This document shows, piece after piece, positions 44,664-64,000 of a stretch of 64,000 nt of DNA; the stretch's first letter is position 1, and each line of letters opens with the position of its first letter. Position numbers and translations under genes: made by a program. The notes under the pieces are model-generated. The model did no database searches. It had not been told where the DNA came from and saw only the letters and a list, made by a program, of their open reading frames with translations. The DNA comes from Phlyctochytrium arcticum. Taxonomy: Eukaryota > Chytridiomycota > Chytridiomycetes > Chytridiales > Chytridiaceae. The stretch lies in assembly GCA_025602905.1 (NCBI GenBank), contig JAHLKI010000015.1, forward strand, positions 678,861-742,860, read 5' to 3'.

Positions 44664-44861
44664 GGAAAGAGGACCGTGAGATAAAGACAGAAAGATGAGA
44701 TTTGAACACGGCAACACGCTGCCGGACGTAAAAGGCATATTTAGAAATACCAGGAAGATTAAAGAGTTCCTTGGAGAGTATATCGACAAAGAGTTAGGGG
44801 ACTACAGGCATCGGCAATCATTCGAAGCTTTTACTAACCATGGAAGTTCTAGCCATGTTTG

Positions 44862-46987: not shown

Positions 46988-48792
46988 TGTGGTTGTGAGG
47001 AATTGAGATTCAATACTTTTGCTGGCAAGTAATCAGGAAGATCTTGAGAATCTTGGTGTTGAGGTTGGACGCGTTCCGAATGTGAACGCGGAGGTGTCCG
47101 ATCCGGTGTCCGATCTTGTTTGGTCATGTGATACTTGTATCAATTGGAAATCGCGTCCGGTCTTCTTGGTCTTCTTGCGTACTGGCGAATCGACCTACCG
47201 AGCCTCTAACATCCTGGAATTATCAGCACTCACGAACAATACTCCCAACTCTGCGTTGCTCGTGGCAATTTGCGTAGCATGCACTCGCACTCGGAGCTTG
47301 GCATTTGCGGTGCGACCTACTTCCCTTAAAATGGGCCTGTCGTTACTTCTTACCGGGCCTACAAGGCAGGTATGACCCCGCGCTGCACTATATGCATCTC
47401 ATTCCCCAAATGACTGTCATCCCTTAGCGCAAAACTTCGACGGAGTTCTGAGCCACAGAACCGCTTCCTACCTATTGGAATGAACCGCTTTCATCATTAA
47501 ACTGCGAGACCATAGTGAAGAAACATCATCGTTGGTAAGTAGGAATTCATTTTGAAAAATTGCGACCTCGATCGGGCGCAATACCATCGTCGCGTCCCTG
47601 GTATTGCGATTAGCGTCTCGCGTGGCGCCCCGAGTCATAATGGGCACCCCCAGCAAGGCGCGTCCTGTTGGGGATATGAGCTCGCGTGCTGGCTCCATTA
47701 ACATGGCGTATCGAACGTTGCTCCATCATAGCAAACCATACTTGATTTGCATGCATCTATGAATTCATCGTCACTGGCTTACATTCTCACTCCTAGCTAT
47801 ATAGTACAAAGAGAAGATCCCGACTATACTCTAACGGAAGGTGAGCAAACGTAACCGAGCGTAGTTCATGCGTCAGAACTCATTGCTGATACCGCAATAA
47901 CTAGGAGCGAACCTAGAAAGATGCAGCCGATCCTGATAGCAACGTTTGCGCGGTTTCAAGAAAACCTAAAAAACCGAAGTTGTAGCTGATGATCGGTCTC
48001 CTCCCCGTCGATGGTGGACAGGTTATTTTGTCAAGCTGTTAGATCATGAACAAGAACCATCATAGTTGGTAAGTAGGAGTTCCATTCGCAAAACAGCAAC
48101 GTTGGTAGATGCAAACCGTCGTATGACGCGTATCGTCTATGATTTGCGTGCGTTAAGTCGTGCCGCCGTGCTGCGTCGAGTTGTTTATGGGCATTACCGA
48201 CACGTATCGTCCCGCTAATTGACGTGGCTTTTCGTGTTCGCTCGTATGTAGTGCCTTAAACGTTGCTGTGCAATCTCCACATGTATGAAGGAGAGGTCGG
48301 GGGAAGTGGTGCATTGTTTGCACTTGTCTGTCTTCGAATTGAGATGAAGAAGTGGTGTCAATACCATCCGTCAGTCCTCAAGAAGTATTTGGAGGGTTGT
48401 TTGTCCGCTTTCCACAAGAAGTTTCCATCACTTTGTTCATATATCTTCGGCTTGGACAACATCCTTTCTGCTTGTGGTTTTTGTCGGCGTCGCCTCGATT
48501 GGAGTACCCGGTTCGTGTCAGAACTGTCCATCTTCTCCTCCCCCTATTCGCTTGCGTGTCTGGGAGATGAAGGGGCTGCTGGAGGAGTCTTCTACCCCTC
48601 ATATCCAGGCCTGGTCCCGGCCTTGTTAACGTAGAGGGGAAAGAGGCATAATGCGGGCCGGATAGGTGCCCGCCGCAGCCGAGAATACATCGGCACCCGT
48701 GCTTTCTGTGCAGCAGAATGACTCTAACCGCACTATCACATGCATAATTGCCGTAGTCTAGGTCGATAGGAAGCAGTCAGATCTGGCGCCGG
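46988..48792. other. Mobile-element debris; direct repeat pair
   Basis: No supported gene. A ~55-bp sequence (core catcatngttggtaagtagga) occurs at about 47511-47566 and again at about 48045-48100, each followed by similar but diverged DNA, as expected of a small non-autonomous element or an old duplication. The frame at 48263-48634 has no recognisable domain. Confidence 0.4.
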
Positions 48793-49571
48793 TTGCGGCG
48801 ACATGTACATTCAGACGATAACGAGGAAGCAAAGGAGATCAAGAGATATTTGAAAGGCCTCGTTAGGGAGTTCATCGTGGTCTCGCCCGAGCCTGGAGCT
48901 GAGGATTCTGGAGATGAGCAGCTCGCCCCTCGTCGGAAACGAAGAGAGATTTGGCGAGAGCGAGACCTTTGGCATGAACAGATTTTGAAAGATTACTTTA
49001 ACGAGGACTGCACTTATACGGCGGCCCAATTCCGTAACCGCTACCGCATGCGACGAGAGCTCGTGTTGGAGATCATTGCTGCCTTGGAGAATGCTAATCC
49101 CTACTTCAGGCGCAAGCCTGACGCCGTAGGTCGTCCGGGTTTGAGTGCCCACCAGAAGGTGACGGCCGCTCTTCGCATTTTGGCTTACGGTCCGCAGGGT
49201 CTGTTGACGAGTACTGCCGGATTGGCAAGACTACCGCATTGGAATGCCTGCGCCAATTCTGCTCATCTATCATTGAGATTTATGAAGCTGAATTTCTCCG
49301 CAAGCCCACGCCAGAGGACCTGCGCAAAATCTTGGCAGTAAATGCCGAACGAGGATTCCCCGGGATGATTGGGTCATTGGATTGTATGCATTGGATATGG
49401 AAGAACTGCCCAAAAGCCTGGGCCGGCCAATTCTCGGGCAAGGAAAAGGTTCCAACTCTAGTCTTGGAAGCCGTAGCTGGCCAGGATCTGTGGATCTGGC
49501 ATTTCTTCTTTGGAATGCCCGGTATTAACAGCGACATCACGGTGTTGGAGAATTCCCACCTTGCGGGTTGA
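48793..49571 (+). pseudogene. PIF/Harbinger DDE transposase, frameshifted and truncated
   Basis: The first part holds the helical N-terminal region (RNRYRMRRELVLEII...) and LSAHQKVTAALRILAYG, typical of Harbinger transposases. The frame then shifts near 49195-49200 at a GGG run and continues with DEYCRIGKTTALECLRQFC. The first catalytic Asp lies in GSLDCMHW, and the second in SDITVLENS, with FFGMPG just before it. Homology stops at about 49558, so the third acidic residue and the C-terminus are absent. There is no ATG in the first frame. This is a dead fragment. Confidence 0.85.
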
Positions 49572-50033
49572 TTTGCTGCCAATGACTCAGGGGTGGTGAT
49601 TTGGCACAAATAGGGGTGGGGATTTGGTAGCCCCCCTCTCTCCCCGCCCACCTTGGCAAAAGACCCAAGCTGTGTGATCGATGAAGTGTGATCGATCACA
49701 ACGTCTCCAAATTTCGCAACCTTGACCCGTCTCTTTTGTCGAGCAAGTGAAGCTTGCCGATCGAGCGCAAAGCGCTCTCTATGCTTCACTTCATCCAGTT
49801 CCATCTTGTTACATGTTCGTTGTCAACATGGGTCCGGTCCATTTTTACTTGCAACTTCACAGACCCTTCAAGATCTCTAATGTTTCCTTTTTCGGGCGTT
49901 TGATATCCATTTTGGGACTAAATGAGCACCAACCGCGGGTCGCCAGCTTTTTGTTATCGATAAACTCGTCGCAAACTTTTGGCAGGCACGTCTCGGCTCG
50001 AAGTTAGCACCATGATGCTGCATCAACCAAAAG
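49572..50033. other. Intergenic between Harbinger fragment and primase ORF
   Basis: Contains a small palindrome (gtgatcgatcac, about 49689) and no supported gene. The breakpoint of the Harbinger copy is at its left edge. Confidence 0.4.
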
Positions 50034-50040
50034 TATAAAA
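50034..50040 (+). promoter_or_regulatory. TATA box of the primase ORF
   Basis: TATAAAA about 100 nt before the ATG at 50141, followed by a T/C-rich leader and an A-rich start context (caacaacaacaatg), resembling a host-type promoter. Confidence 0.55.
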
Positions 50041-50140
50041 GGGCAGCCGTTTCTCATTCCCCCCTGCGTTTCTGATACTTCGCTTTTTTTGTTTGCACAA
50101 TTGTAAAACTACTTCGTCTTCTCTCATCACAACAACAACA

Positions 50141-50746
50141 ATGCCTCTGCCTCTCCGTAACATTCAATACCTTGGGTTGACCTGGACGGGCAATAACGTG
50201 GTCGACCGAAGCGGAGCAATGAATCACGTGATTCAGCAACTTGAGCCCGACCAGTTTCCGATTCTTTCATTTACGACCAAGTATAAACGACTCTATACGG
50301 CGGTCACTAGCAGCAAGCTGGCAGCCCTTGTTGCCAAGAACCGAGGTCTCTATGAAATTATCCTTCCGGAACGCAAACGCAAAGTGTACTTTGACATTGA
50401 TCCCAAAGACAACTTAACGCTGGACGAGATCAAATCAAAGATTTTGGCCCAGTTCCCTAATGCCAGATTGCATATATCCGGTCGTCACCCCAACGGCGAA
50501 GAAGCGGGTTCCTATCACGTTGTACTGAGTAACTACTATACTGACAACCTTGATGAGACCCGGAACACCACACGGCGCTTTGCCGACGCAAATGGTTTCG
50601 ACACAGCGGTCCATTCCACCAACCAACAGTTCAAGTGTATCAACCAAAGCAAGCCTGGCAAACCGGTTCAGGCATACATGGAAGGCAGCAACGATCCGCT
50701 CAAACACTTGGTTATGCACGGGTTTGACGACTGTCATAGTGCATAA
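50141..50746 (+). CDS. Archaeo-eukaryotic primase (UL52/NCLDV-like) domain, truncated
   Basis: 201 aa from the ATG at 50141. It shows AEP motif I as VYFDIDP (Asp85, Asp87), motif II as SYHVVLS (His126) and motif III as GFDTAVHSTN with the NQSK segment that follows in herpes UL52/NCLDV-type primases (Asp154 onward). These residues bind metal and nucleotide for primer synthesis. Viral versions are usually fused to a superfamily 3 or other helicase or a zinc ribbon. Here the frame ends after only the catalytic core, within the left arm of a perfect palindrome, so it is probably truncated. It could belong to the adjacent viral element or be a separate capture. It has no introns. Confidence 0.75.
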   Translation: MPLPLRNIQYLGLTWTGNNVVDRSGAMNHVIQQLEPDQFPILSFTTKYKRLYTAVTSSKLAALVAKNRGLYEIILPERKRKVYFDIDPKDNLTLDEIKSKILAQFPNARLHISGRHPNGEEAGSYHVVLSNYYTDNLDETRNTTRRFADANGFDTAVHSTNQQFKCINQSKPGKPVQAYMEGSNDPLKHLVMHGFDDCHSA

Positions 50747-50794
50747 AAATAGCACATAGTATATACTATGTGCTATTTTTATGCACTATGACAG
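50731..50794. repeat. Perfect 64-bp palindrome without spacer at the end of the primase ORF
   Basis: The left arm, starting ctgtcatagtgcat, is the last 16 coding bases plus 16 more, and the right arm is its exact reverse complement. The right arm is thus an inverted copy of the ORF end. No central spacer. Confidence 0.97.
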
Positions 50795-50935
50795 GGGCTA
50801 TTCCAGCTATATGCCAGCTATCCATCAGCTATATTCCAGCTATTTGACCAGCTATGTTCCAGCTATATGCCAGCTATTTGACCAGCTATCCATCAGCTAT
50901 CCATCAGCTATCCATCTCAGGTCGCTCCATCGAGT
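50795..50935. repeat. Tandem (c)agctat-type repeat
   Basis: About a dozen imperfect units of ccagctat/atcagctat spaced by 3-8 nt directly after the palindrome. DNA further right quickly becomes AT-rich. Confidence 0.85.
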
Positions 50936-51261
50936 ATCGAGTCATCTTACAAATCACGAGTCATCTCCCTCCATTACTCATCGAGCCGAGCCGCTCCTCT
51001 CACGGGACTTCCTCACTACACCATATCCGCATAAACTCGACCCTACTTTATACTGCACACCATTTTCTCCCATATTCCAATGCTTTTATCCAATATTCCG
51101 CATTCTATGTGTCCATCCGCCTCCATTTTCTAACCGAGTTAGACTTTTTGAGGGTCGCCTCCTAAGGGACTTCCACTCCTTTTATAAACATTTTCTATTA
51201 TCGATTTAATTCAATTCTGGCTTATCGATAAAACTACACTTTCGCAATTCACCCGTTCAGC

Positions 51262-51640
51262 AAAAAAGGGGGGCAGAAAGGGGGGCAGCTTTTTTTCACT
51301 CCATCTCTCGAGTGAATAATACTTTTATCTTATATTTCCCCCCACTTTACATGTAGGGGGGCAGGGGGGGCAGCTTTTTCGAGGTAAAGTCCCTGGGGAT
51401 ATAGGTTTTTCACTACTCATAAGTAGTTCACACGTTCTGAACTACTTCTCACTCAAATAAAAATTTTATAAGAATCATAAACATACAAAAAAACTGCCCC
51501 CCCTGCCCCCCTTTTTTTACCTACATAGAAACACTGCACTACTTTATTAATTAATTTTTCTTTTCTTACATGTACCGAGTGGGGGGCACTTTTTTAAAAC
51601 CCTGCCCCCCTACCTGCCCCACCCTGCCCCCCCTCTTCAT
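51262..51640. repeat. G-tract/C-tract inverted repeats
   Basis: Two plus-strand blocks (51267-51296 and 51353-51379) with ggggggcag runs followed by cttttt are answered by blocks of ctgcccccc/tgcccccc (51494-51518 and 51601-51632). 51353-51379 and 51486-51525 are imperfect reverse complements around a ~105-nt loop. The G-runs could form G-quadruplexes. The position at the left edge of the AT-rich viral DNA suggests a terminus or origin-like region. Confidence 0.7.
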
Positions 51641-51675
51641 CAAACCCACTATCAATCACTTCTTCAATAATATCC

Positions 51676-52071
51676 CTACAAAGTATCGAGCTTCCATAAT
51701 TCGATATTCCAAGCAGCTGATCTGCTTTTTCCAACCGTCATCAAAATATACAGAAATTCGTTCAAATTCGCCAAATCTGTATCATATACGTCGTTTTCTT
51801 GTAACTCTTGTAATCTCTTCATGACACTGTCCAATAAAAGTTCTAGTGTAAACATACAGTAAACCCATCGCTCTCTCGTCACAACATCAGAATGAGACTC
51901 TGCTGTTGTGTTCAACATATCAATAATAGTGGACAAAAATAACTTGTATTTGCATGCTTCCGGAGTCTCCCCATCCTCATCCCACACTTGATGTTCATAG
52001 GAATAAATACTCAATGCCATCCATTTGGAAAAGTTAATAATCCCAATAGAAATTTTGTCAGTGGGTGCCAT
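51676..52071 (-). CDS. Small helical viral protein, paralogue A
   Basis: 131 aa, function unknown. It is related to the 53297-53695 product: both begin with (K/E)ISIG(I/L)IN(F/Y)SKWM and end with GK(S/N)(R/K)SAAWNIEL, separated by a predicted helical middle with conserved Trp and Leu positions. No known domain recognised. A TATA element lies 42 nt upstream at the same spacing as for the paralogue. Such duplicated accessory genes flanking other small ORFs are typical of viral accessory regions. Intact. Confidence 0.75.
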   Translation of the reverse strand: MAPTDKISIGIINFSKWMALSIYSYEHQVWDEDGETPEACKYKLFLSTIIDMLNTTAESHSDVVTRERWVYCMFTLELLLDSVMKRLQELQENDVYDTDLANLNEFLYILMTVGKSRSAAWNIELWKLDTL

Positions 52072-52112
52072 TTTTTCTCGAGTGATAATGAAAGGGGAAA
52101 GGACAGGTTGAA

Positions 52113-52124
52113 TGCTCTTTTATA
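52113..52124 (-). promoter_or_regulatory. TATA-type viral promoter of paralogue A
   Basis: Reads TATAAAAGAGCA on the minus strand, 42 nt before the ATG. The identical 12-mer stands at the identical distance before paralogue B. Confidence 0.75.
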
Positions 52125-52215
52125 GACGGGAATGAGGAGTCACTTATATATTATTATTATATAATATGACATGTCAAGAATGTGGATAAGTCATGTGCAT
52201 GTGGATAAGTCACAC

Positions 52216-52320
52216 GGATGGAAAGGAGAAAGAAAGAGGAAAGAACCAATATCCCGGATTGCGGATGGAAAGGAGAAAGAAAGAGGAAAGAACCAATATC
52301 CCGGATTGTGGATGGAAAGA
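52216..52320. repeat. 47-bp tandem repeat, 2.2 copies
   Basis: Unit begins ggatggaaaggagaaag and ends cccggattg(c/t); two near-identical full copies and an 11-nt partial copy. It lies between divergent genes. Confidence 0.92.
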
Positions 52321-52417
52321 ACCAAAAACTGTCACGCCTCTTCATCAATCACTTCTTCAATTGTACCCCTTTCTTTAATTATTCGCCCACTACTCTATCG
52401 GACATTGCGTCTCAGAA

Positions 52418-52424
52418 TATAAAA
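52418..52424 (+). promoter_or_regulatory. TATA box of the Cys-rich gene
   Basis: tataaaa 28 nt before the ATG at 52452, in an AT-rich leader. Confidence 0.55.
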
Positions 52425-52451
52425 GTTATTTACTCTCAACTCAAGTAAACA

Positions 52452-52892
52452 ATGAGTTATTTTGTCATTTGTTCTGGTTGCTGTAACATTGAGCTTGAGT
52501 TTGGTGATATGGAATACTGCCGTTCATGCGAACGAGATTACTGCGAAAGATGTTCAGTTGTTTATCAACCTAATGATGAGGCAAATGTTTATTTTCCAAA
52601 TGGTGGTACGAACCCAAAAAGGCTACGAGAACTATTAGAATCGGAGACTCCTCCTGGATGTAAAGCTTGTCGCAAGGAACTACTGTGTTTTGATATTGAA
52701 AATAAATACTATGACAAGAAAGAATACCCGTTCCACGATAATTGGAAAGAGAAGGTTAAGAAATGGAAAGAGGATCTTGTCGAACCTATGAACACCTATG
52801 TAAGTAAGACTCCGAAAAAGCGACAGCACCCCACAAGGGGGTGCGCTGGGGCGAAGCCCAACAACCGCGAAAACGAAAAGACAAAAAAATAG
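52452..52892 (+). CDS. Cys-rich zinc-binding viral protein (RING/treble-clef-like)
   Basis: 146 aa. Cysteines are arranged as pairs: ICSGC near residues 7-11, YCRSC and YCERC near 22-34, and CKACRKELLC near 72-81, a pattern able to bind two zinc ions as in RING or ZZ-type fingers. I cannot assign the exact class. The C-terminus is highly basic and includes a GC-rich patch (52828-52862) with two small hairpins (accccacaagggggt and gggcgaagccc), unlike the surrounding AT-rich viral DNA. Possible roles are ubiquitin ligation or nucleic-acid binding. Ends 21 nt before the next ORF. Confidence 0.7.
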   Translation: MSYFVICSGCCNIELEFGDMEYCRSCERDYCERCSVVYQPNDEANVYFPNGGTNPKRLRELLESETPPGCKACRKELLCFDIENKYYDKKEYPFHDNWKEKVKKWKEDLVEPMNTYVSKTPKKRQHPTRGCAGAKPNNRENEKTKK

Positions 52893-52913
52893 ATTAGTAT
52901 CTAATAATTGTAA

Positions 52914-53261
52914 ATGAATCTCTTGGACAATCTACCTCTCGATGTCGGATTGCTTATTTTAGATTATTTGGATACAGATGACTATAATACAGTTGCAAGA
53001 ATGTATAATATTAATCCTGTACGTGAAGTTTGCAAGAGGTTGGAAAATGAGACGTGGGCTGTCTGTACCCGAAAATACGAAAACGATATGGTTAGGATTC
53101 GGTTAAAGTATACAAATCCCAATATGAACATGCTGTATATTTATACTGAAAACTTCCAAAGAAGAAAGATTCAAAAAGAGGGAATTGTTTTTTGCTCACG
53201 GACTTTCTACGGCCATAAACACATTGATCCCAGAACGCGTAAATCCCGACCTTTACTCTAG
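52914..53261 (+). CDS. F-box-like viral protein
   Basis: 115 aa. The N-terminus LDNLPLDVGLLILDYLDTDD fits the F-box pattern (LP.-..-L..IL.-L...D), the segment that binds Skp1 in SCF ubiquitin ligases. The rest is basic and without a recognised substrate domain. It follows the zinc-binding gene with a 21-nt gap, so both may be co-transcribed and may act on host ubiquitination. This is suggested by motif only, and the F-box call is moderate. Confidence 0.5.
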   Translation: MNLLDNLPLDVGLLILDYLDTDDYNTVARMYNINPVREVCKRLENETWAVCTRKYENDMVRIRLKYTNPNMNMLYIYTENFQRRKIQKEGIVFCSRTFYGHKHIDPRTRKSRPLL

Positions 53262-53296
53262 AGTCACTCACTTATTACATAATATCCCTACAAAGT

Positions 53297-53695
53297 TCAT
53301 TCCGTTTGGCACAATTCGATATTCCAAGCGGCCGATTTGTTTTTCCCAACCATTATCAAATCTTCCAGAAGTTGCAACAAATTGATTATATCTAAAATGT
53401 TTTTATCAACGGGACTATCCTCGGCTCCCTTTTTGAAATGTCCGAACACGAGGTGTACTAATTTTTCTAGTGAAAAAATAACTTGAATCCATCTCACCTC
53501 CATATCATCACGAGAGTCATTCGTTTCGTCCAACACATTCAGAATAGTGGTTATATCTAACAGAAATTTCTCTACTTCGGGAGATTTTTCAACAAGTGTT
53601 TCGACAAAGGCGTCAATGATTGTTCTCATCCACTTGGAATAGTTAATGAGTCCAATAGAAATTTCCTCAGTTGCTACCATTTCTAGTCTCTCCAT
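53297..53695 (-). CDS. Small helical viral protein, paralogue B
   Basis: 132 aa, function unknown. Paralogue of 51676-52071 (shared ends ISIGLINYSKWM and SAAWNIEL). There are two possible starts, ATG 53695 and ATG 53680. The second aligns with the start of paralogue A, but the first restores the same 42-nt distance from the TATA element. Convergent with the F-box-like gene (35-nt gap). Intact. Confidence 0.75.
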   Translation of the reverse strand: MERLEMVATEEISIGLINYSKWMRTIIDAFVETLVEKSPEVEKFLLDITTILNVLDETNDSRDDMEVRWIQVIFSLEKLVHLVFGHFKKGAEDSPVDKNILDIINLLQLLEDLIMVGKNKSAAWNIELCQTE

Positions 53696-53736
53696 TATAG
53701 AATGTTGCCAACATCTGACAGGGAGGAGGTCAACGC

Positions 53737-53748
53737 TGCTCTTTTATA
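53737..53748 (-). promoter_or_regulatory. TATA-type viral promoter of paralogue B
   Basis: TATAAAAGAGCA on the minus strand, same 12-mer and same 42-nt distance to the ATG at 53695 as in paralogue A. Confidence 0.75.
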
Positions 53749-53871
53749 GACCAAAATGTGGTCAAGTCACGTGAATGCGGTGACATCATGATGATGTCAC
53801 TATGTGGTCAAGGCCCAGAACTTTTGTCAAAATTGTCACCTACCTTTTGAATTTTGTGATATATATGATAA

Positions 53872-54294
53872 ATGATAATACTCATAGTAGATGATAATCC
53901 GATAGGACTGAGAATTTTAAAGAAAATGATCCGCAAATTGTTCCCTAATTTAACAACTATATTATTCGAAAATGTGTCGAGTGCAATGGAATTCATATCA
54001 ACTAATTATGAAGAAATATCAGTAGTATTTTGTGATATGTTTTTTCCTGATGAAAAAAGAAGACCAATCTTGGTAACAGATGGAGTAAATCTCATTAAAA
54101 TCATAAGAGGAGTGGAGAAAGACACGATGTATGAAACAAAAATAAAAATAATAGGTTTTTCTTCGAGTCCATTTTATGAAAAAGAAGCACGTTCTGCAGG
54201 AGCCGATATGTTCTTTCATAAACCAATTACACTAGATAATGTGAAAACTGCTTTAGAGTTTTTGCAAAAAGAGGAACAATTTAATTTCCTTTAA
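53872..54294 (+). CDS. Stand-alone response-regulator receiver (REC) domain
   Basis: 140 aa consisting of one receiver domain. Key residues are all present: the acidic pair Asp7-Asp8 in ILIVDDN, phospho-acceptor Asp55 in VFCDMFFPDE, the switch Ser/Thr position in IIGFSSS (about 97) and Lys117 in FFHKPIT. The family takes a phosphate from a histidine kinase or phosphotransfer protein, so the product could tap or quench a host phosphorelay. Fungi have such relays, and their hybrid kinases carry receiver domains of this kind. No output domain is fused. It has viral AT-rich codon usage, no intron, and intact flanking viral genes. Capture from a eukaryotic hybrid kinase is likely. Confidence 0.9.
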   Translation: MIILIVDDNPIGLRILKKMIRKLFPNLTTILFENVSSAMEFISTNYEEISVVFCDMFFPDEKRRPILVTDGVNLIKIIRGVEKDTMYETKIKIIGFSSSPFYEKEARSAGADMFFHKPITLDNVKTALEFLQKEEQFNFL

Positions 54295-54412
54295 ATGCGT
54301 GCGAACTTCATAATATATTAGAAATGTTGGGGAAAAAAAGGGAAACTGATGAGTAGTTGGTGAAACGCATTATCAAGAAAAGACTTTATTCTTGAGAATA
54401 CAGTAAAACAAG

Positions 54413-54691
54413 ATGGTACGATTTAATAGATTTACAAACGAATGTCCGACGGATGAGAGTGAAATCCGTGACAGAGTCGTTGAGATTTATGACAAAATTG
54501 CTTCCATTGATAAGAAGAAAGAATTTCTCAATGATTTGAGAAAACAAATCCCAGACATGGAGGAAGACACTGTTAAATTCTTAGAAAACAGTATTATAAT
54601 ATCTCAAATCGAGACGAAATATAAAAGTCAATTTAAAAAAAAGGCACAAAAATATAAACGAGTTCCTGTGGACATGGACAAAGAAGACTAA
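54413..54691 (+). CDS. Small charged viral protein, unknown
   Basis: 92 aa, Lys/Glu/Asp-rich and predicted helical, with a basic tail (FKKKAQKYKR). No domain recognised. Same strand as the receiver gene, 118 nt downstream. Open and with AT-rich viral codon use. Confidence 0.55.
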   Translation: MVRFNRFTNECPTDESEIRDRVVEIYDKIASIDKKKEFLNDLRKQIPDMEEDTVKFLENSIIISQIETKYKSQFKKKAQKYKRVPVDMDKED

Positions 54692-54728
54692 AAACACGGA
54701 ACTTTTTTATCGCAAATTGTGATATCGT

Positions 54729-54935
54729 ATGACTCGATTCTTTGTCAAAAACAATAAGAGATTCTCATTTTTGACACCGAATTATTCCGTCGGAGCGATG
54801 TCCCTCCTTTTTGATAATATTTCTTTATGGTTAGATGCGTTATCAAGACGCTCTATTAGAACTAAATCTCATATAAATGGTGATCGGGTCGTCCAGGTGA
54901 GTAAAAACAGTTTAAAGTCTGTGTTTAGGACTTAA
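54729..54935 (+). CDS. Small basic viral ORF, unknown
   Basis: 68 aa, rich in Arg/Lys/Ser. It starts 37 nt after the previous ORF on the same strand. No domain recognised, and it could be a chance frame in AT-rich DNA. Confidence 0.3.
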   Translation: MTRFFVKNNKRFSFLTPNYSVGAMSLLFDNISLWLDALSRRSIRTKSHINGDRVVQVSKNSLKSVFRT

Positions 54936-54960
54936 TCAATAATATACATAGAATAAAAAG

Positions 54961-55177
54961 ATGCCTGTCCAACGCAAAATTCAAGGTCATACTTTGTTGA
55001 ATATGACAAAGACCTGCACACACATGGAACTCCTTCACGAAAATGTGTGAGCAGATGCCGAGTGTGGATAAAGAAAAGGTTCTTATCTATGTGAATGTAC
55101 TAGTGAAAACCGGCATATCTTCAGAGAAATTGCTAGTATTTGTAGTAATTAGAACTGCCAAAAATCGACAGGACTTA
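54961..55177 (+). pseudogene. Possible small viral gene with one frameshift
   Basis: An ATG at 54961 opens a frame that stops near 55050. A shifted frame from about 55040 continues with a helical Leu/Val-rich stretch to a stop at about 55177. Together they could be one former ~70-residue protein. Weak evidence. Confidence 0.25.
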
Positions 55178-55232
55178 TAGAGACTTTGCTTTTTAAAGTC
55201 GGGGTATATGGGAATTTCTCGTGGTCTTCTCA

Positions 55233-55523
55233 TCATAGCAACTGATAAAAACCATTTACTCGATAAGTTATTGATTGAAATAGAGAAGGTGGATTAAAAT
55301 ACTTGCAAATCTTTGCCTCCAACTTTGATATAATAATGCTTGTTGTCTTTACTATGGTAGAGACGGTTGATCCGTTTAAATTCTTAACTGAGGGTGTCAC
55401 GCAAAGTACATAGAGGGCTGTCGGGGTTATCATTTTTTGTCCTATATAGAATTTAATAGATAGTGTTGCGCTGAAATTGATGGGAAGGGGAAATGCCTCT
55501 GTTTTTTTTGGAAATAAGATCAT
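55233..55523 (-). CDS. Viral ORF, unknown, possibly fibre-related remnant
   Basis: 96 codons open on the minus strand downstream of the fibre region. No domain recognised. Other minus-strand frames around it also look protein-like in short pieces, so this may be part of a decayed gene rather than an intact one. Confidence 0.3.
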   Translation of the reverse strand: MILFPKKTEAFPLPINFSATLSIKFYIGQKMITPTALYVLCVTPSVKNLNGSTVSTIVKTTSIIISKLEAKICKYFNPPSLFQSITYRVNGFYQLL

Positions 55524-55989
55524 TATATGGTAAACGAAATTTAAACAATTTCACGACCCCTATCTTCAAATTCCAAGACAGACAGCGTCAATATCCAACG
55601 GTATCATTTGTATGATTGTTTCGACTCATGTTTTCAAGGAATAATTGCGATAACAGAATGAAATCAAGATCGTGTTGTACTTGGAAATCCCTTCTCATTT
55701 GGTAAACTCTGACTAGTTTGTAGATTGCCTTGTAGTGTGTATGTCATCACTTCCATTTGGTATCTTATTTTCGGATTCCGTAGATGTATCAGATATGTCG
55801 CTCATTTAATTGTCTTAACATATGTCACTGTTAAATAATTGAATCTGGAAACGAGAATGACTATACTCGATATATGTAGATCTAGTCGACAATTAGCATC
55901 GAAAGACAAATTCGAGCCGTCCAGGTCAAAGTGAAAATTATGCGACCCAAGTGCGAGTCCTGATGTTATACACGATAGAGGGAAACGTA

Positions 55990-58900
55990 CAATTTGCCCA
56001 GCATATCTCCAAAAAAGTTAAAATGTTTAAAATGTTTCCATCAACTCGAATGGAAACATCCGCACCATAATTGTCCGAGTTTGAATATAGAGCAATAGAG
56101 CCATTGAACATTTGAGTCGATCGTGTTGTAGTGAAGTGAAAGCCTTTATGAAACCGCTAGGAATGGATGTATCACCCGGCCCTGCATTGTTCCAGATAGA
56201 TATAGCAAACTGGTCGAGTAATTCACCACCTTTCGGGCTATCTAGGTACAAACCTGAATCTGTTTTTATATACATCATGTTTTGGTATGGAGCGGCGGTT
56301 TGAAGTATTACCAATGCCAATATAACCCGAGACAGTTGCGTTGTTATTCTCGAATTGAATAGTGGAAAAACCATCAACTTTTCTGTTCTTTATTTTAAGA
56401 ACATTCCCTACGAAATTAGCCTGTATTAAATGCGATATGGTACTATTTATCCCAAAATCAATACGCCGTCCGTTGCCAAACTCGGCAAAGTCGGTGTCGT
56501 ACCGTATAAAGTGGTAAGGTTACTTGGAACACTTGATAATCTCGTAAAATCCAAATTCCCAACTACATCAGATGTAGACAAATCGACATTTCAATTCTTA
56601 AAAGTAACCAAGGGCTGGTCGGCCCACCAGCGTATTCCATTCTATATTGAGAGTCAATTTTATTTCGTCGCTATTAGAGTCTGTAATCAGAGGTTGCAAT
56701 GTCGAAACATCTACTTTAGTAATTGGAAGCCCCCCGTAACAGAACTTGTAGACAAATCAATCGTGTCAAGATTTGATAATGCCTTCAACTGGCTTTGTCT
56801 AGTTTCAAAATAGGAGTGAATCGATTATCTATCGCAGATTGTCGAGTATTATATGTAGAGAGCAATGTGTAGTTACTTAATGGAATTGCAGCAATTTGAG
56901 TATTGACATATTCTTGACTAGCAATTAGCTTATCTCCCGGAAGATACACACCACTAGAAGATATTTTTAACTTCAGATAAAGTTCCGCTCGATCCATTGA
57001 AGAAGAGAATACCATGGACGATCCAAAACTGTTGTCATCTAGAATGCTAATTTGCGAAGATACTTTGTTGGAAATGGAGCGAATTTGAATGTTTGAACCG
57101 AATTGGAATCCTTTGTGAGAAGGATACTATCCACATATTTGTTGTTACTGAATCCACCAGAAATTCCCTTGAACGATAACGTACTTGATACTGTTCCCGT
57201 TGTAGGAGAACTTTGATGAGTGAGAGATTAGTGTTCCATTTACATATACTGACAAAGTATTGTAAACAAGTTTAATAACCACATTAGTCCAATTGACTCG
57301 AGGTAAGGACAAAACAGGTATAGTTGTAGGATTTGTACCTTCGGGTGAAGAAGTTATGAGTGTAAAATTTGACCATGATGAGAAATAGACCATCCACCCC
57401 CACATGTAATTTGAATACCATCATCGTTTTGACTTCCATAATTCAAACTTGAATTAAGAGTCCAATAACGCCCTAGATTAGGGATAGTATAGGTAAGAGT
57501 ACCTGAAGAACTCGTTTGTCCCCATGCTTGTAATTAAACCCATTTGTTGTGGTGAGTCGTATAAAGCGTTTCCAGTTAGTACACCAGTTGGTGCGGCGGA
57601 ATTGAAATTTTCATTCAATAATGTTGTCGAAGTTGTGTCAAGTCCTGAAAGCGAAAATGAATTAGTAATGGTGTTTTGTTTGGTAGCAATCGAGGCATTA
57701 ATACTGTTCAAATCCGTTGTTCGAGTGAGATATGGATTTAAATCCGGAGTGTTGCTAAGGAGAGAATAATCCAGTTTTGCGGAACTTGTAATAAGTGGGT
57801 GTTTGCTTGCTAAAACAGTCGAAAGAGCTGCGTTGTTCACATATCCTAAAAGTGTTGTACTGAGGGACGAATTACTTACATACGTTGAAGCGACACTGGA
57901 ACTTGTTGCATAAATACTCAAATTTGGCGTTTGATATCAAACTGTAGTCCAACTTCGCGGAACTTGTGATTTTCGGTTGGAAATTATTATTGATATTCGA
58001 TTCTATATCAAGGCAAATAAGATTTGTTATTTCAAGTTGCTCACTTAAAGGCTCAAGCAGAGCAGAAGTAGTGGAAACAATTTTTGGTAGAATTACCTCT
58101 GTATCATACTCGCGTAATATTTGAAGATTGACCGCTTGTTGACCGTATTCATTTTGTAATCCTAACCACGAACATGGAGGAGGTTTATCGAACAAAAGCC
58201 GCGTTGTTTCACATCCAAGAACATCTGGTAGTGTCGCAATGACGACATTTGAACCTTCTTCGGAGAGAAGCGGTACCATCTTCGTTATACAAACCGTTAT
58301 CATCCTCATCTTTTTCTTGTTTCCGTTCATGTCCCCAAATTCCAATGAATCCACCTACAAGGGAGCCTCCTGTCAAAGCACCCGATAAGCCTCCTACGGC
58401 TCCTATAGCCGAACTTGCGATTCCTGTGATGCCAGCGCCACCGCCTAAAATTGAGATAACTCCACCAAGTCCTCCTAACGCTCCAGCCAATCCACCACTC
58501 GATGTATTGTAGTGCCTGAACCAGATTTGAACGTCTCTTCTGGAGTGTCGGCGGTTTTTTGCTCTGGTGGATCTTCAGCCGTTTTCTCTTGTGTGAAAGT
58601 GTCAATGCTCGAAATGGTATACGGTCCTCCGGGGGAGCCAGCCACGATAATACCAGTACCTGGAAGGATAGTCATAGAATTCGATATCGTTTTCCCTGCT
58701 ACCGTGATCCCAGCATTCCCGGACACATACGGTTGTTCTGGTTCAGGCTCTGGTATATCGAGTGTGCATGAAATGGTTGCCCCGGTGATGCTAATATTGG
58801 TACCAGCCACATAGGCTCCGCGAATATCATTTCCAACACGTGTGACTCCATTAGATGCTGTGAGATTTTCTGTTATGTTTGTTGTCGAATTCATGGAGAG

Positions 58901-60400
58901 AGCTCCTTCTACGGTCAAATCTAGACTAACTTCATGACTACTATTCTCGTGCAAGCCGTTTACGAATGTTCGAGTATCTGTCAATATTTCATCATCGAAT
59001 TCGAGATTTCCTTGTGTATGAAGATCCAGGAATACCTCATTTCCATTTCTAAGTCCAAGATTGTTAATACTTTGAACGATTAAACCAGAGGTAAGTTTAC
59101 CTTCGCTATTGACTCGAATACTTGATTATTTACAAATGCTGAAGGATTCACACCAATATTATTGTTGAGATCCACGACAAGTGTTGCGTCGGTTCGTAGA
59201 GATATTTCTCGTCGACCATTCAAAACTCCGCTGATATCTATCGCAGAACCGCTTTGGATAATGTTCAACATATGAACTTGTCACTGCTTCATCACTATGG
59301 GTGAGAAATTCTGCGATAGAATTACATGCGGAACTTCTAATCGTTGAAATGTTTCATTAGAAACAAATGCATCGCTCCGTCTTAATGAAGAGAGCCCAGA
59401 GTCATATGGAATTTCTCCAGTACCGGTCGAGCGGAAGGCAAGTTTTCCACCAGTTTGTTGAAAATTTTCATGGTCTACATCAAGTTTTACTATCGCTCCC
59501 TCGAGACTTTCAAGGGGGTCTCTGTAAACAGAAATTGCTCCAGCTCCTTTTAAAAGACTGTCAACATCCTTTGCATTTAGCGCTCCGTCTTTAATCTCTA
59601 AATTTCCCCCAATTTTAATCGCAAGGTGACCATCATCGTTTACAGAGAATGGGTCATTTATGAAAAGCGTCAAACCTCTTCCGAGACTCCAAGTGTGGTG
59701 CTGATAATGAATACCTACCGTATCGTCGTCTCGATACATTGGGGCCTCGTAATTTAAATTTTCACTTTAGCTCTCCATCATCAATGTGGAGTGTATCTGA
59801 ATCAATTTCAAGGACAATTTATGGCTGTTGAATGCATCAAATTCGAAGGGATTGGCAATTTCAACGATAATCCTTTTTTAAAGAGGCTTCCATCTAAGTC
59901 GAACAACCCTTCATCATCAATAAAATGTGAGAATATCGTAAATCTATTTTGTCGTCGTCATTATAAACGAGGGACTATCAACTGTTGGTAATTTTTCAAT
60001 TATCTGATAATTTTTCTTGTTCGTTAATAAATAAACATGAATCGTCAAAATTCAGAGAGACCAGGTGTTGTTCTGTCGAATACTGAAGTGGATTCTCCAC
60101 ATTTAAATCGACCGTCGACAATTTCCCTTGAGAAACTAGAAGACGACTCTCATCTACCGATAATGAAAGAGTTACTTCACCGTTTTCGAGATTGGTGGAC
60201 AAGGGTTCGATTGAGCTTACTTTGTTAACCTCCAATTCCCCATTTTCGTTAATAATTTTGTCTATTTGTGCCGATGCGAAACCTGTTATATTCGTTGACC
60301 CATTTCCGATGAGCCCTGCACCGGATACTTCCGGCGAGACTAGGTCGATTCTATCAAGTAAACGTCGACCAGATGATGTCCTGCTGTTAATATTTGACAT
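55990..60400 (-). pseudogene. Long fibre/receptor-binding protein with lectin domain, many frameshifts
   Basis: From ATG 60400 a fibre-like protein can be followed across frames for about 4.4 kb. Successive blocks have the Ser/Thr/Asn/Gly-rich beta-repeat character of viral fibres. A peptide like ITSSAKLDYSL(L/I)SN occurs twice (about 57750 and 57960), and LSTS(S/D)V-type units recur near 56.5-56.8 kb. At about 57080-57530 lies a laminin G/concanavalin A-like lectin segment (WTNVVIKLVYN...VYVNGTLI). At least eight frame changes or stops interrupt it. A Gly/Ala-rich hydrophobic stretch near 58360-58490 could be a membrane or collagen-like hinge. It follows the packaging ATPase on the same strand after 30 nt. 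It probably bound host surface sugars. Clearly decayed. Confidence 0.7.
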
Positions 60401-60430
60401 TTCCAATATTACATATTAGCAAGCATTTTT

Positions 60431-61159
60431 TTATGCTGGCTTTCCAAACTTGAAAACATCATCATTTTTTGCAGCCTTTAAGTCAATGAACAAGAATGAA
60501 TATGCATTTTTTGTTGCCTCCTCAGCGAGTTCAACAAATTTTTTTTCTAACAAATGACAGCGTAGCTCAGGGGCAATCTTCTCGTACTGCTTTGTATTCA
60601 ATCTATAAAGTATAACATTGGTATTATTTACGCGTTGCAACGGAGTCATTTGCAAAGTATCGTGAAAGGAACATATCATGGAAATTCCAAAATGCCTTCC
60701 CCTCGAGTATATTGTATCAAGCATTTCTCGTATACCACTTGAAACATCTTCTTCATTTTTCAATTTCTTTTTGAAATCGTTTCCATTTTGTCGGGCCAGT
60801 ATTCCATAATCATCTACTACAATCAATAGATGATTGTTTTCTTTATTTTCTTTGTAAAGTTCCTTTTGTTGCTCGAATAATGCATGAAGAACGTGATTAG
60901 AAACAAGTTGTGAAATGTATACATTCTTTTTTCTTTTCAAACTCGACCAAATTGGATCTTCAACACTCGGAGTGAAAATACAAACATTTCGGTAAGTTGA
61001 GGATAATTGCTCGATAAAGTTCACTTGACAGGTTGTTTTTCCGGAACGCGAAGATCCGACGATGGAGAGAACAAAGAATTTTTTCGGATATCCAGATGGC
61101 GTTTTATCATGAATTTTAATGTCGTCTTCCTTTGAAATGGTGACTTTATGAATGTTCAT
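60431..61159 (-). CDS. FtsK/HerA-type genome-packaging ATPase (A32-like)
   Basis: 242 aa, intact. Walker A is GSSRSGKTT (Gly35-Thr42) and Walker B is LLIVVDDYG (Asp116/117), followed by a conserved helix region ending SMICSFHDTLQ, as in A32-like packaging ATPases of PLVs, virophages and adintoviruses. It drives viral DNA into the capsid. Its ATG is 57 nt from the penton-like gene on the other strand, so the two share a bidirectional promoter region. It is the only virion-module gene here without a frameshift. Confidence 0.93.
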   Translation of the reverse strand: MNIHKVTISKEDDIKIHDKTPSGYPKKFFVLSIVGSSRSGKTTCQVNFIEQLSSTYRNVCIFTPSVEDPIWSSLKRKKNVYISQLVSNHVLHALFEQQKELYKENKENNHLLIVVDDYGILARQNGNDFKKKLKNEEDVSSGIREMLDTIYSRGRHFGISMICSFHDTLQMTPLQRVNNTNVILYRLNTKQYEKIAPELRCHLLEKKFVELAEEATKNAYSFLFIDLKAAKNDDVFKFGKPA

Positions 61160-61216
61160 TTTCGAATGTAAATCTACAAATTAATTATCTTTCTTGTTAA
61201 TATATTAGAAAGAAAG
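61160..61216. promoter_or_regulatory. Bidirectional viral intergenic promoter region
   Basis: 57 AT-rich nt between the divergent ATPase and penton-like starts. No clear TATA consensus beyond ttaatatatta on the penton side. Confidence 0.4.
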
Positions 61217-61962
61217 ATGTATCGCGAATATATACTTAATACAGGGACTATTCTGAATAACGACACGAGCACATTTCAAATCCAGCCACCACAAACTGTA
61301 TATGCATTCCGAATTGTGTCAGTCAATTTTTTACAAAACTGGGACGCTACAAACTCAACTAATAACAAGATTCTTTTTGCTGAATCTGGAGATCCAAATC
61401 CGAGAGTAGCTATTATTCCGCAGGGAAATTACCACTCCAGTAACATAACTAATGCTATTGCAACTGAAATGACTTCGGTGGGCAGTCAAGCATATTCTTG
61501 TATATACAACGATGTAACTAGAAGGTTGAGTATTTCAACTAGTGGTTCAAGAGATTTCAAAATTTTGGGTGCCCAAAGAGGTTCAACAGCATCTCTCCAA
61601 TTGGGTATTCTTAAAGGGCAAGAACAGGTATGTCAAAAGACCACATCATGGAAAATCCGTTGAATCTATCAGCCAGTCAACCTATTCTTTTGACATCACG
61701 GACTTTACAAGCGGGAAGTGGAATCGTTTATGTAGCGGGTTTGGAAAGTCAAATGAATGTTCTCGCTTGTATCACTCCAGATGCAATGAATGATGTTGTT
61801 CAATGGGTAAATCCATCTGATAACATGTTCTCATGTGGCGAAGTTTCATTATCTTCTATCGATATTCAGTTGGTTGATTCGCAATCTTTACAGCAGATTA
61901 AATTTTCAGCACCCATTGTTGCTGTGATCGGCTTTTATGACGATGTAACAGATTTGTACTAA
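61217..61962 (+). pseudogene. Penton-like minor capsid protein, one frameshift
   Basis: Two overlapping frames (61217-61663 and 61630-61962) form one ~248-residue protein interrupted by a single frame change at about 61625-61650. The first part contains a motif typical of PLV/virophage pentons (beta strands, GNYHSSNITNAI followed by a short helix), and the second is beta-rich and ends FYDDVTDLY. Pentons fill the fivefold vertices of the capsid. Order penton, small protein, MCP fits PLVs. Confidence 0.7.
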
Positions 61963-61992
61963 TTTTTTTTTTCTAAAATATTAATAAAACCA

Positions 61993-62479
61993 ATGGACCC
62001 AACCGAAGATATCACAAATATTCATGTTGCGAGTACAGTTTCTGAGCCTGTACTGGAAGATGTACAAGAGTCTGTACCAGCTCCAGTATCCGAAACAATA
62101 CAAGTCAAAAAACCCAAAAGAGAAATGAGCCAGAAACAAAAGATGCCTTAGAGAAAAACCGCGCAAAACGGACTGATAGACTTCGTGCTATGAAAGAACA
62201 AAAAGCAATCGAGGATGAGGAAAAAAAAATAACGGCCGCGAAAGAATTATTAGCTGCGGAAAAGGAAAAAAAACGATTGCAAAAGGAAAGTCGCCAATCA
62301 TCTGTAAGGAAAACACCAAAACAATCAGAAAAACAGTTAAAGCAGCTGCAAAGCCTGTACAAATTTCGAAAAGGGTTCCAAGAAATGAGCCAGATGCAAT
62401 TATGAAGAAAGGTTTTACAACAGTCGAATTTGATAGACAGGCGCCGCCAAATCCATTTGACATTATTTTTGGAATTTGA
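61993..62479 (+). pseudogene. Small Lys/Glu-rich virion-region protein, frameshifted
   Basis: ATG 61993 gives an acidic N-terminus. The frame stops at about 62150 and shifts into a long Lys/Glu/Ala-rich, coiled-coil-like stretch (62190-62400), then shifts again into a short C-terminus ending NPFDIIFGI at 62479. It stands between penton and MCP. A scaffold or DNA-binding core role is possible but unsupported. Confidence 0.55.
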
Positions 62480-62514
62480 ATGGTATTTTTTTTTTTAATT
62501 TGTTAAAGTAAGAA

Positions 62515-63817
62515 ATGTCTATCGCAACATCACTACAAGGCTCTACTTTCCCCGTCGTTCCAAACTCATGGATTTACCAAAGTAAGAATTTCGGTCTGAC
62601 CTCAAATGCCCTATCTGAAAACATTGTAACATGGAAACCCATAAAATACAAATACGACTATCGAGCACCAGGCTCTGTAATAAAAATTGATGTAAATTCA
62701 TCTACTTCCTTTTTACGTCCACAAAGGTCATATTTTACTTTCAAAGTGAAACATTTCAATGCGGATGGTTCAATCAATACTACCGTCGATTCCTCGCTTG
62801 TTGGTTTGATGTCTCATTTGAAATCACAAGTTATTAGAATGTCGGGAAAAACTGTTGAAGATATCGTTGATTTGCCCGAATTTCTTGCTGAATCATATAC
62901 CTATGAAACTTCTAGTCGTAGAAAATCTGCAACATTTTGCAGGTGTTGGCAACAAAGACATCTTAAAAAATAGTGACGGTTCTTTCACCGTTAAACATCA
63001 TGTTCGTTCCGGAATTTTCGATAATGTCAATGGATCACCTATTCCATTGTGCTTGCTTCCGACTCATACAATGGAGCTAAACTGGTCTCTTAATGCTGCC
63101 TCCGCCGCGGTCGCAAATGCACCAGCTGGTGGGTATTTTACCATCGAGGATCCACGATTGGTTGGTCAAATTGTAACTCCTGATGCTGCCTTTCTTTCCC
63201 ATGCTTGGGAAGGTCTTGAGAAGGGTCGTGTTCTACAAATGGATTACGTTGCACCGACAATTGTATATAATAATTGTAATGGATCAACACTCAACACGTT
63301 TAATCTCCCCGTTGCCAATTCTCGTATTGTTGGGTTAATGGCTAGGTTCCGTGATGACAATGTTTACTCTACATCTACTGGCGATAAATCAGTTATCTCC
63401 ACGCCACAAAACATGACCTCTTGGAGAATCAAATGTGACCAGTATAATCTACCCAACGGAGAGGAATTCAAAGTAGAGGACACATTGATGGTTGGTGCTC
63501 TTTCCATGAGTGATTCAGAAACTTACGAAAGCGAGGATATTGACTTGGATAGTTTCTTGACAAAGAATTTCACGATTCGCTTCAGTTGGCAATCTTCTGA
63601 CGAAGACCAGTATTCAGCTCTTAACCTACAAGGAACCTCCAGCTCACTTCAACTCATAACAAAACACTCAAGTCCGCCCCCTAGCACTCAAGTCGCATTG
63701 GTAACAACAGTTTTTACTCATAGAACCTTATTGATAGGTAATACGGTTGATGTACAATGTAAATTTGCGAGAGCCGGCTTTGCCCCCCATATATTCATAA
63801 TCGTTAATTTTGAATAA
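62515..63817 (+). pseudogene. Major capsid protein, double jelly-roll type, one frameshift
   Basis: Frames 62515-62973 and 62855-63817 together encode one ~430-residue protein. The frame changes at a TTTT run near 62935, and deletion of a single T there would make it continuous. The N-terminus (FRP-like FLRPQRSYFTFKV) and the two beta-rich halves fit PLV/adintovirus major capsid proteins of the double jelly-roll lineage. The second half ends in a strand-rich domain. The assignment rests on position, size, neighbouring packaging ATPase and sequence character, not on a search. Confidence 0.78.
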
Positions 63818-64000
63818 TTTTTGAAATAATTCACAATTAACAATCCTCTAGCATCCTATTCATTTACTTCTTTGTTCGTCGCAAAATATATGGTAACAAT
63901 TGTGGAGGCACGTGACGAAGGTCATGGCTCCCTTTCTAGTTGTCTTTCTGACAACATGTAATGGCGGCGGTGCAAGTCCGTTTTTTATTTTTGTTCTAGA
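63818..64000. other. AT-rich tail after the capsid gene
   Basis: No ORF or RNA supported. The viral element probably continues beyond the window. Confidence 0.5.

Follow-up and report, generated by a model that had tools for sequence, protein, structure and literature searches.

The question raised by the end of contig C15 in the genome assembly of the chytrid Phlyctochytrium arcticum is whether a fungal chromosome carries an integrated Polinton-like virus (PLV). The window analysed here is the whole stretch of 64,000 nucleotides that forms the final 64 kb of C15 (742,860 bp), in a 31.5-Mb assembly of 91 contigs. A first-pass annotation, made from the letters of the window, had placed a PLV endogenous to a fungus at 51240..64000. 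There is indeed a PLV in this region, and positions 50,732-64,000 are read here, with a probability of roughly 0.88, as the left 13.3 kb of an endogenous PLV of P. arcticum. Its left end is at 50,732, not at 51,240, and the right limit that had been given is the end of the contig, window position 64000, where the PLV is cut off and left incomplete. The AT-rich block that had been described is borne out by a fall in GC from about 0.5 that starts at about 51 kb, with values of 0.32-0.45 from 52 kb onward compared to 0.43-0.56 across 1-50 kb.

A complete copy carries this reading. The sequence C6:95,669-116,762 is a near-exact match to window positions 42,918-63,999, and the complete PLV occupies C6:103483-127749, which is 24.27 kb inside a 1.28-Mb contig (1,280,568 bp). 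The endogenous PLV of a fungus proposed by the first-pass annotation is therefore supported by a copy that is internal to a long contig and lies in an outer insertion with a 5-bp duplication and an empty site. PLVs are described as elements of 14-40 kb with terminal inverted repeats (TIRs) (PMC12220804; here and below, articles are cited for those parts of their text that were available). The C6 copy is within this range and has 1.1-kb TIRs, each beginning with a 62-bp perfect palindrome, 5'-TGTCA...TGACA-3'. From the left, the gene order on C6 is small accessory genes, fibre, ATPase, penton-like protein, basic protein, major capsid protein (MCP), a 460-aa open reading frame (ORF), an integrase of retroviral type that carries a chromodomain, an ORF resembling a recombinase, and lastly a primase-helicase of D5 type. 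On this viral gene order a host gene cluster was rejected as the identity of the block. The frames for the penton-like protein (248 aa), the basic protein (162 aa), the MCP (416 aa), and the ATPase (242 aa) are all open on C6. The corresponding ends and structural genes in the window are as follows.

50732..50793, no strand: perfect 62-bp palindrome at the left terminus of the PLV (sequence, palindrome scan, folding)
50732..51839, no strand: left TIR of the PLV, about 1.1 kb, with its partner at C6:126642-127749
55850..60400, minus strand: fibre gene region with adenovirus-type shaft repeats, in several broken frames (Adeno_shaft 2.9e-5)
60431..61159, minus strand: A32-like genome-packaging ATPase, 242 aa, intact (Pfam Pox_A32 3.7e-7)
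61217..61962, plus strand: penton-like protein, two overlapping frames, one 248-aa frame on C6 (size, position)
61994..62480, plus strand: basic charged protein between penton and MCP, a 162-aa frame on C6 (frame comparison with C6)
62515..63817, plus strand: MCP, two frames, one 416-aa frame on C6 (homology to hexon)

The A32-like ATPase, penton-like, and MCP-like genes named in the first-pass annotation are all recovered. For the ATPase, the Pox_A32 match is joined by a family profile, built from 10 sequences, whose matches extend to the packaging ATPase B204 of STIV (E 0.0016). The MCP has 27% identity (1e-37, over most of its length) to a protein that the third party annotation (TPA) section of GenBank lists as hexon, from a 'Powellomyces chytrid fungus MELD virus', which makes a capsid function probable. 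The penton-like protein is so named from its size and position, not its fold, the one PDB match below 0.001 being 21nr_A 'TLP-IPT' (6.2e-5). Of the lectin fibre that had been proposed, the fibre stands on its shaft repeats; two of its three pieces were scanned, and neither contains a lectin domain. The fibre frames are much longer on C6 than in the window, with one in-frame stop.

The ATPase, penton-like, and MCP genes form the cluster that is conserved in PLVs, in which the position of the penton was checked in the C6 element and in Geranomyces. A single gene model in Geranomyces variabilis runs from the penton C-terminus through the basic protein into the MCP, which indicates the same order in another genus. 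The public annotation of the MCP on C15 (425 aa) omits a stretch found in the C6 frame and closes with another C-terminus, which would fit a gene model drawn round a frame break.

In the remainder of the C6 element, the integrase matches Pfam rve (9.7e-8) and Chromo (2.6e-10), as well as PFV integrase in the PDB (3.4e-5). The primase-helicase, of 845 aa, matches D5_N (4.2e-8) and a phage primase profile (1.2e-27). The recombinase-like ORF is conserved, is 334 aa long, and resembles tyrosine recombinases by eye only; no link to tyrosine recombinases or protelomerases was found in Pfam, PHROGs, or PDB.

The PLV was said to adjoin spliced fungal genes, yet the sequence directly to its left, 42,918-50,731, is made up of two further mobile elements. 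The PLV sits in an older outer element, referred to here as E1, which itself lies inside a Crypton-type gene.

42918..44569, plus strand: 5' part of a Crypton-type element (Pfam NDC10_II 1.8e-45), with near-identical copies elsewhere
43488-44663, plus strand: tyrosine-recombinase-like ORF with NDC10_II domain (Pfam), interrupted at 44569 by E1
44565..44569, no strand: left copy of the 5-bp target duplication of E1, TTCCC, with the right copy at the right junction on C6
44570..44616, no strand: terminal palindrome of E1, TGTCACAGTGC...GCACTGTGACA (pattern scan, folding)
44570..50731, no strand: left arm of E1, with an inverted copy across the PLV on C6 (sequence comparison)
44862..46196, minus strand: 444-aa open frame (stop to stop) in E1, without a Pfam match
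49121..49570, plus strand: Harbinger-type DDE transposase remnant in the E1 arm (Pfam Plant_tran 2.4e-39), position approximate, transferred from the inverted C6 copy (L043:6911-7360)
50141..50746, plus strand: N-terminal part of a replication-protein-like ORF cut by the PLV end, primase-like by eye, without a supporting Pfam match, 20 matches in the genome

The NDC10_II match identifies the tyrosine recombinase gene of NDC10/GCR1 type that is expected of a Crypton. The flanks to the left of 42918 differ between C15 and C6. The Crypton coding sequence resumes on the right flank on C6 and in a copy on C1, where the GCR1 label was assigned by eye. A search for target-site duplications had been suggested by the first-pass annotation, and TTCCC was found at the outer insertion: the uninterrupted Crypton on C1, the empty site, has a single TTCCC, while C6 has TTCCC, 36.6 kb of inserted sequence, and TTCCC again. 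The E1 arm flanks the PLV on both sides on C6, in inverted orientation, and together with the PLV TIR makes up a 7.3-kb inverted repeat. In a simple account of this arrangement, the PLV would have inserted into E1, recombination between the PLV repeats of two copies would then have generated an element with two left arms, and this two-left-armed element would have moved into the Crypton.

The Crypton segment 42918-44569 is present in several copies, with matches rounded to 100% on C6, C1, C32, and C17 (partial), 98-99% on C3 and at a second place on C1 (partial), and 72-81% on other contigs. Relatives of the ORF at 50141-50746 are found within frames of 1126, 975, and 941 aa at C40:24567, C45:3409, and C54:82533. 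C40 and C45 additionally hold MCP genes from distant branches, while the MCP gene on C54 comes from the branch to which the window MCP belongs.

Both E1 and the PLV start with palindromes of one design, TGTCAYAGTGC-inner arm-GCRCTRTGACA, and both of those in the window fold as single strands far better than shuffled sequences (z -14.2 and -10.1). A scan of the genome for this pattern, with spacers of 15-45 bases, identified 61 sites compared to 0 for a reversed-pattern control, and spacers of 46-76 bases added one more, on C50, for a total of 62 by pattern. The pattern does not demand that the inner arms be complementary. At the 50 of the 61 sites where these were analysed, there are 25 different inner arms, with perfect pairing in 38 cases, 1-2 mispairs in 11, and no pairing in one. 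When palindromes are paired as the ends of elements, 5-bp duplications match by eye at 7 of 11 pairings: C3, C13 inner, C13 outer, C7, C25, C22, and C6 outer. Pairings on C15, C24, and C2 have no target duplication and were dropped as pairs, the inner pair on C6 has inverted flanks in place of a duplication, and the sites C22:135890 and C17:104314 were not used as pair ends. Inside the 39-kb element on C3, which has matching duplications, lie an MCP gene, an integrase gene, and the recombinase-like ORF, and the inner element on C13, of 19.1 kb and likewise with matching duplications, carries a PLV fibre, an integrase C-terminus, and the recombinase-like ORF.

Ends of the form TGTNR are typical of Gypsy and Ginger integrases (PMC2836005), and the TGT... 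ends and 5-bp duplications seen here fit integrases of this type. The palindromic ends suggest that the free genome may have hairpin ends and that insertion may be carried out by the encoded chromodomain integrase.

The search for further copies that was suggested along with the first-pass annotation shows that the PLV is one of many. There are 59 matches to the MCP in the assembly, merged by script into 49 loci, at 30 of which the gene is full-length in one frame, in 26 cases without a stop; the ATPase has 52 matches at 46 loci. These are lower bounds for the search tool used in each case and, conversely, C15 and C6 may be one locus. An ATPase gene is present within 8 kb at 34 of the 49 MCP loci, on the opposite strand in 34/34 and on the 5' side in 33/34, leaving 15 MCP loci with no ATPase within that distance. 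At four places, ATPase or MCP genes with identical scores are found as pairs in opposite orientation 13-21 kb apart (C18:112837/131372, C9:391156/404289, C1:1325439/1341274, C40:8387/29665), which suggests that these are inverted dimers of whole PLVs.

The relatives of the different genes are not the same. The window ATPase is close to copies on C26, C5, and C7 (79-82% identity) and the window MCP DNA is nearest to C25 and C54 (73%), while the ATPases at C17:15968, C23:276539, C4:887463, and C4:912180 are only 28-30% identical to that of the window. The integrase of the C6 PLV, on the other hand, is 65-70% identical to copies on C17, C23, C4, C2, C3, and C25:309604. The capsid relatives on C7, C5, C25, and C54 have integrases at a distance of 3-5 kb from their MCP genes, and these match it at only 25-29%. 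By eye, the recombinase-like ORF travels with the integrase at 10 of 13 loci. On these comparisons the capsid and integration modules have separate histories.

A mis-join between host and viral contigs had been raised in the first-pass annotation as a risk, and it is a real possibility for the junction in the window, not for the PLV phenomenon. It is somewhat more probable than not that the window PLV is no second insertion, the assembler having left a true Crypton copy on C15 and continued into reads from the C6 locus; the junction would then be a mis-join or over-extension at a repeat. Within the 1652 bp of the Crypton part, 7 substitutions separate C15 from C6 (and 6 separate C6 from C1), but in the 6.16-kb E1 arm there are 0 between C15 and the left arm on C6, with 7 between C15 and the right arm. 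A Fisher test on more cautious counts, 6/1652 against 1/9430, gives a p of 6.7e-5. Over the whole of window 42.9-64 kb, there are 15 substitutions relative to C6 and 68 indel events, mostly of 1 bp, of which 57 are at 54-60 kb, and the contig ends within the PLV. Such differences are expected of a contig that passed from another Crypton copy into thinly covered reads from the C6 locus. The same pattern would, however, also arise in real DNA through ectopic recombination or through gene conversion among Crypton copies. The same indels bear on whether the element is a decayed and functionless fossil with genuine frameshifts in MCP, penton, and fibre, which seems unlikely. The window ORFs are broken, the fibre on C6 has its in-frame stop, the integrase and recombinase-like ORF on C6 are in pieces, at 19 of the 49 MCP loci there is no single full-length frame, and a stop interrupts 4 of the 30 full-length ones. 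Against this, the ATPase, penton-like, basic protein, and MCP frames are open on C6, the 26 stop-free MCP loci are full-length, and the differences between C15 and C6 are mostly the 1-bp indels crowded near the contig end. The frameshifts of the window copy look like consensus noise and should not be taken as decay.

Were the element a strict Polinton or Maverick, copied by a protein-primed polymerase of family B, the rve integrase with chromodomain, the capsid module, and the TIRs would be as expected. The ORFs scanned in the C6 element (some short ORFs being outside the scan) include no polymerase B, the sole long replication gene there is the D5-type primase-helicase, and on this result the strict Polinton was rejected. 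The target duplication of Polintons is 6 bp, while those found here are 5 bp, and the identity is left very improbable indeed. There is somewhat more room, though still little, for the possibility that the palindromic ends are those of some unrelated family of transposons, one that took up PLVs or merely adjoins them. Some of the palindrome-paired elements are only 1.7-7 kb, E1 holds the Harbinger remnant, and most PLV loci have, by eye, no nearby end of this pattern (50 of the 61 sites being compared), yet the C3 and C13 elements with matching duplications hold PLV genes and the inverted repeat of the PLV begins at the palindrome.

This last scarcity of palindromes also counts against an endogenous PLV with ends of the kind described, and would suggest that other PLV lineages may have other kinds of ends. 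Several further observations weigh on the same side. The virus is known here solely as assembled sequence. The inner PLV ends on C6 have no direct target duplication, since both flanks are copies, inverted, of the same E1 arm. The integrase on C6 is apparently in two overlapping frames and the recombinase-like ORF is also in two, and the C6 copy may therefore not be autonomous. Pairs of MCP genes with identical scores (e.g. C25/C54, C17/C23) could be recent copies or assembly duplicates. Searches of the PDB with MCP profiles gave no capsid match, and Pfam Capsid_N matched only one of 11 members of the MCP family, at 0.02; the double jelly-roll fold expected of a PLV MCP is putative here. For the capsid proteins PHROGs gave nothing useful, and in IMG/VR no relative was found via the MCP (single sequence and profile), the ATPase profile, or the primase-helicase.

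In the mechanism proposed for this endogenous PLV, the viral genome would be linear double-stranded DNA whose ends form hairpins, and would be replicated by the primase-helicase that it encodes. The integrase would attach the TG/CA ends to the chromosome, giving rise to the 5-bp target duplication, and the capsid module would package the genome into virions, or would have done so until recently. An extended version, in which chytrid PLVs in general are linear genomes with covalently closed hairpin ends, is speculative and held at low probability. Copying through the hairpin would keep the palindromes perfect while the inner arms drift freely between lineages, the recombinase-like protein beside the integrase would resolve palindromic junctions, and the integrase would insert the opened ends. 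If so, one fungal genome would preserve a virus community that swaps capsid and integration modules.

The first-pass annotation held that PLVs with intact structural modules are rarely described in fungi, which needs qualifying. A PLV has been published from Spizellomyces punctatus, and MCP, ATPase, and helicase genes from Allomyces (Bellas and Sommaruga 2021, PMC7805220), and GenBank holds the hexon of Powellomyces chytrid fungus MELD virus 5, a TPA entry to which the P. arcticum MCP is homologous; no publication on chytrid MELD viruses was found in a literature search. Like the S. punctatus group (PMC7805220), the element described here is a PLV integrated in a chytrid. Unlike that group, the window MCP belongs to another branch, with 27% identity to the related Powellomyces hexon. 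A second MCP branch of this genome (L084) is 44% identical to S. punctatus SPPG_02195, presumably the MCP of the published element. The number of MCP loci in one assembly is a further difference, as are the palindromic ends, of which the available text of PMC7805220 makes no mention; it does describe TIRs and duplications of 5-7 bp for elements with a tyrosine recombinase or rve integrase.

With Polintons and Mavericks the element shares its integrase type (apparently in two overlapping frames on C6), capsid module, and TIRs, and differs in its primase-helicase and in having no family B polymerase among the scanned ORFs. With Ginger transposons and Gypsy-type integrases it shares the TGTNR ends and, as in TDD-4 and TDD-5, the 5-bp duplications (PMC2836005), although neither capsid genes nor palindromic ends are mentioned in the available part of that article. 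Poxviruses, relatives of African swine fever virus, and chloroviruses, which are linear viruses with hairpin ends, have TIRs with hairpin-capable sequence as here, but their hairpins are in virion DNA and some are incompletely paired, whereas in P. arcticum it is integrated palindromes that are seen (PMC11814242). A large protist survey of integrated PLVs excluded fungi by design (PMC10120064). In the searchable literature, which covers few subscription journals and is weak evidence of absence, there is no report of P. arcticum PLVs or of palindromic PLV ends. While chytrid PLVs are thus already published through the S. punctatus group, this many copies in one fungus appears to be new, as do palindromic ends in which the outer arms conserve TGTCAYAGTGC and the inner arms vary yet are self-complementary.

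In the P. arcticum genome, a true fungus is seen to have PLV loci by the dozen, from several MCP branches and in many cases with open capsid genes. Chytrids would on this showing be a candidate system in which to study particle formation by PLVs and the effects on their hosts. The palindromic ends offer a testable handle on the replication and integration of PLVs that have no polymerase B, and a sequence tag for locating further elements.

Between the left TIR and the fibre region, the window PLV has six small accessory ORFs.

51676..52071, minus strand: 131-aa ORF, first of two related ORFs (ORF list)
52452..52892, plus strand: 146-aa ORF, weakly Zn-ribbon-like (Pfam Zn_ribbon_NOB1 0.0096, below cut-off)
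52914..53261, plus strand: 115-aa ORF, weakly F-box-like (Pfam F-box-like 0.0024, below cut-off)
53297..53695, minus strand: 132-aa ORF, relative of the ORF at 51676-52071 (ORF list)
53872..54294, plus strand: 140-aa response-regulator receiver domain (Pfam Response_reg 4.3e-11)
54413..54691, plus strand: 92-aa ORF (ORF list)

The two related ORFs also have similar upstream DNA, within one PLV. Among solved structures, the receiver domain has its best match in that of SLN1, a histidine kinase (1.3e-4), and it might be speculated that this PLV gene hijacks a phosphorelay of the host. P. arcticum is filed under Chytridiales by NCBI, while the named relatives of its MCP are from Spizellomyces, Powellomyces, Gaertneriomyces, and Geranomyces.

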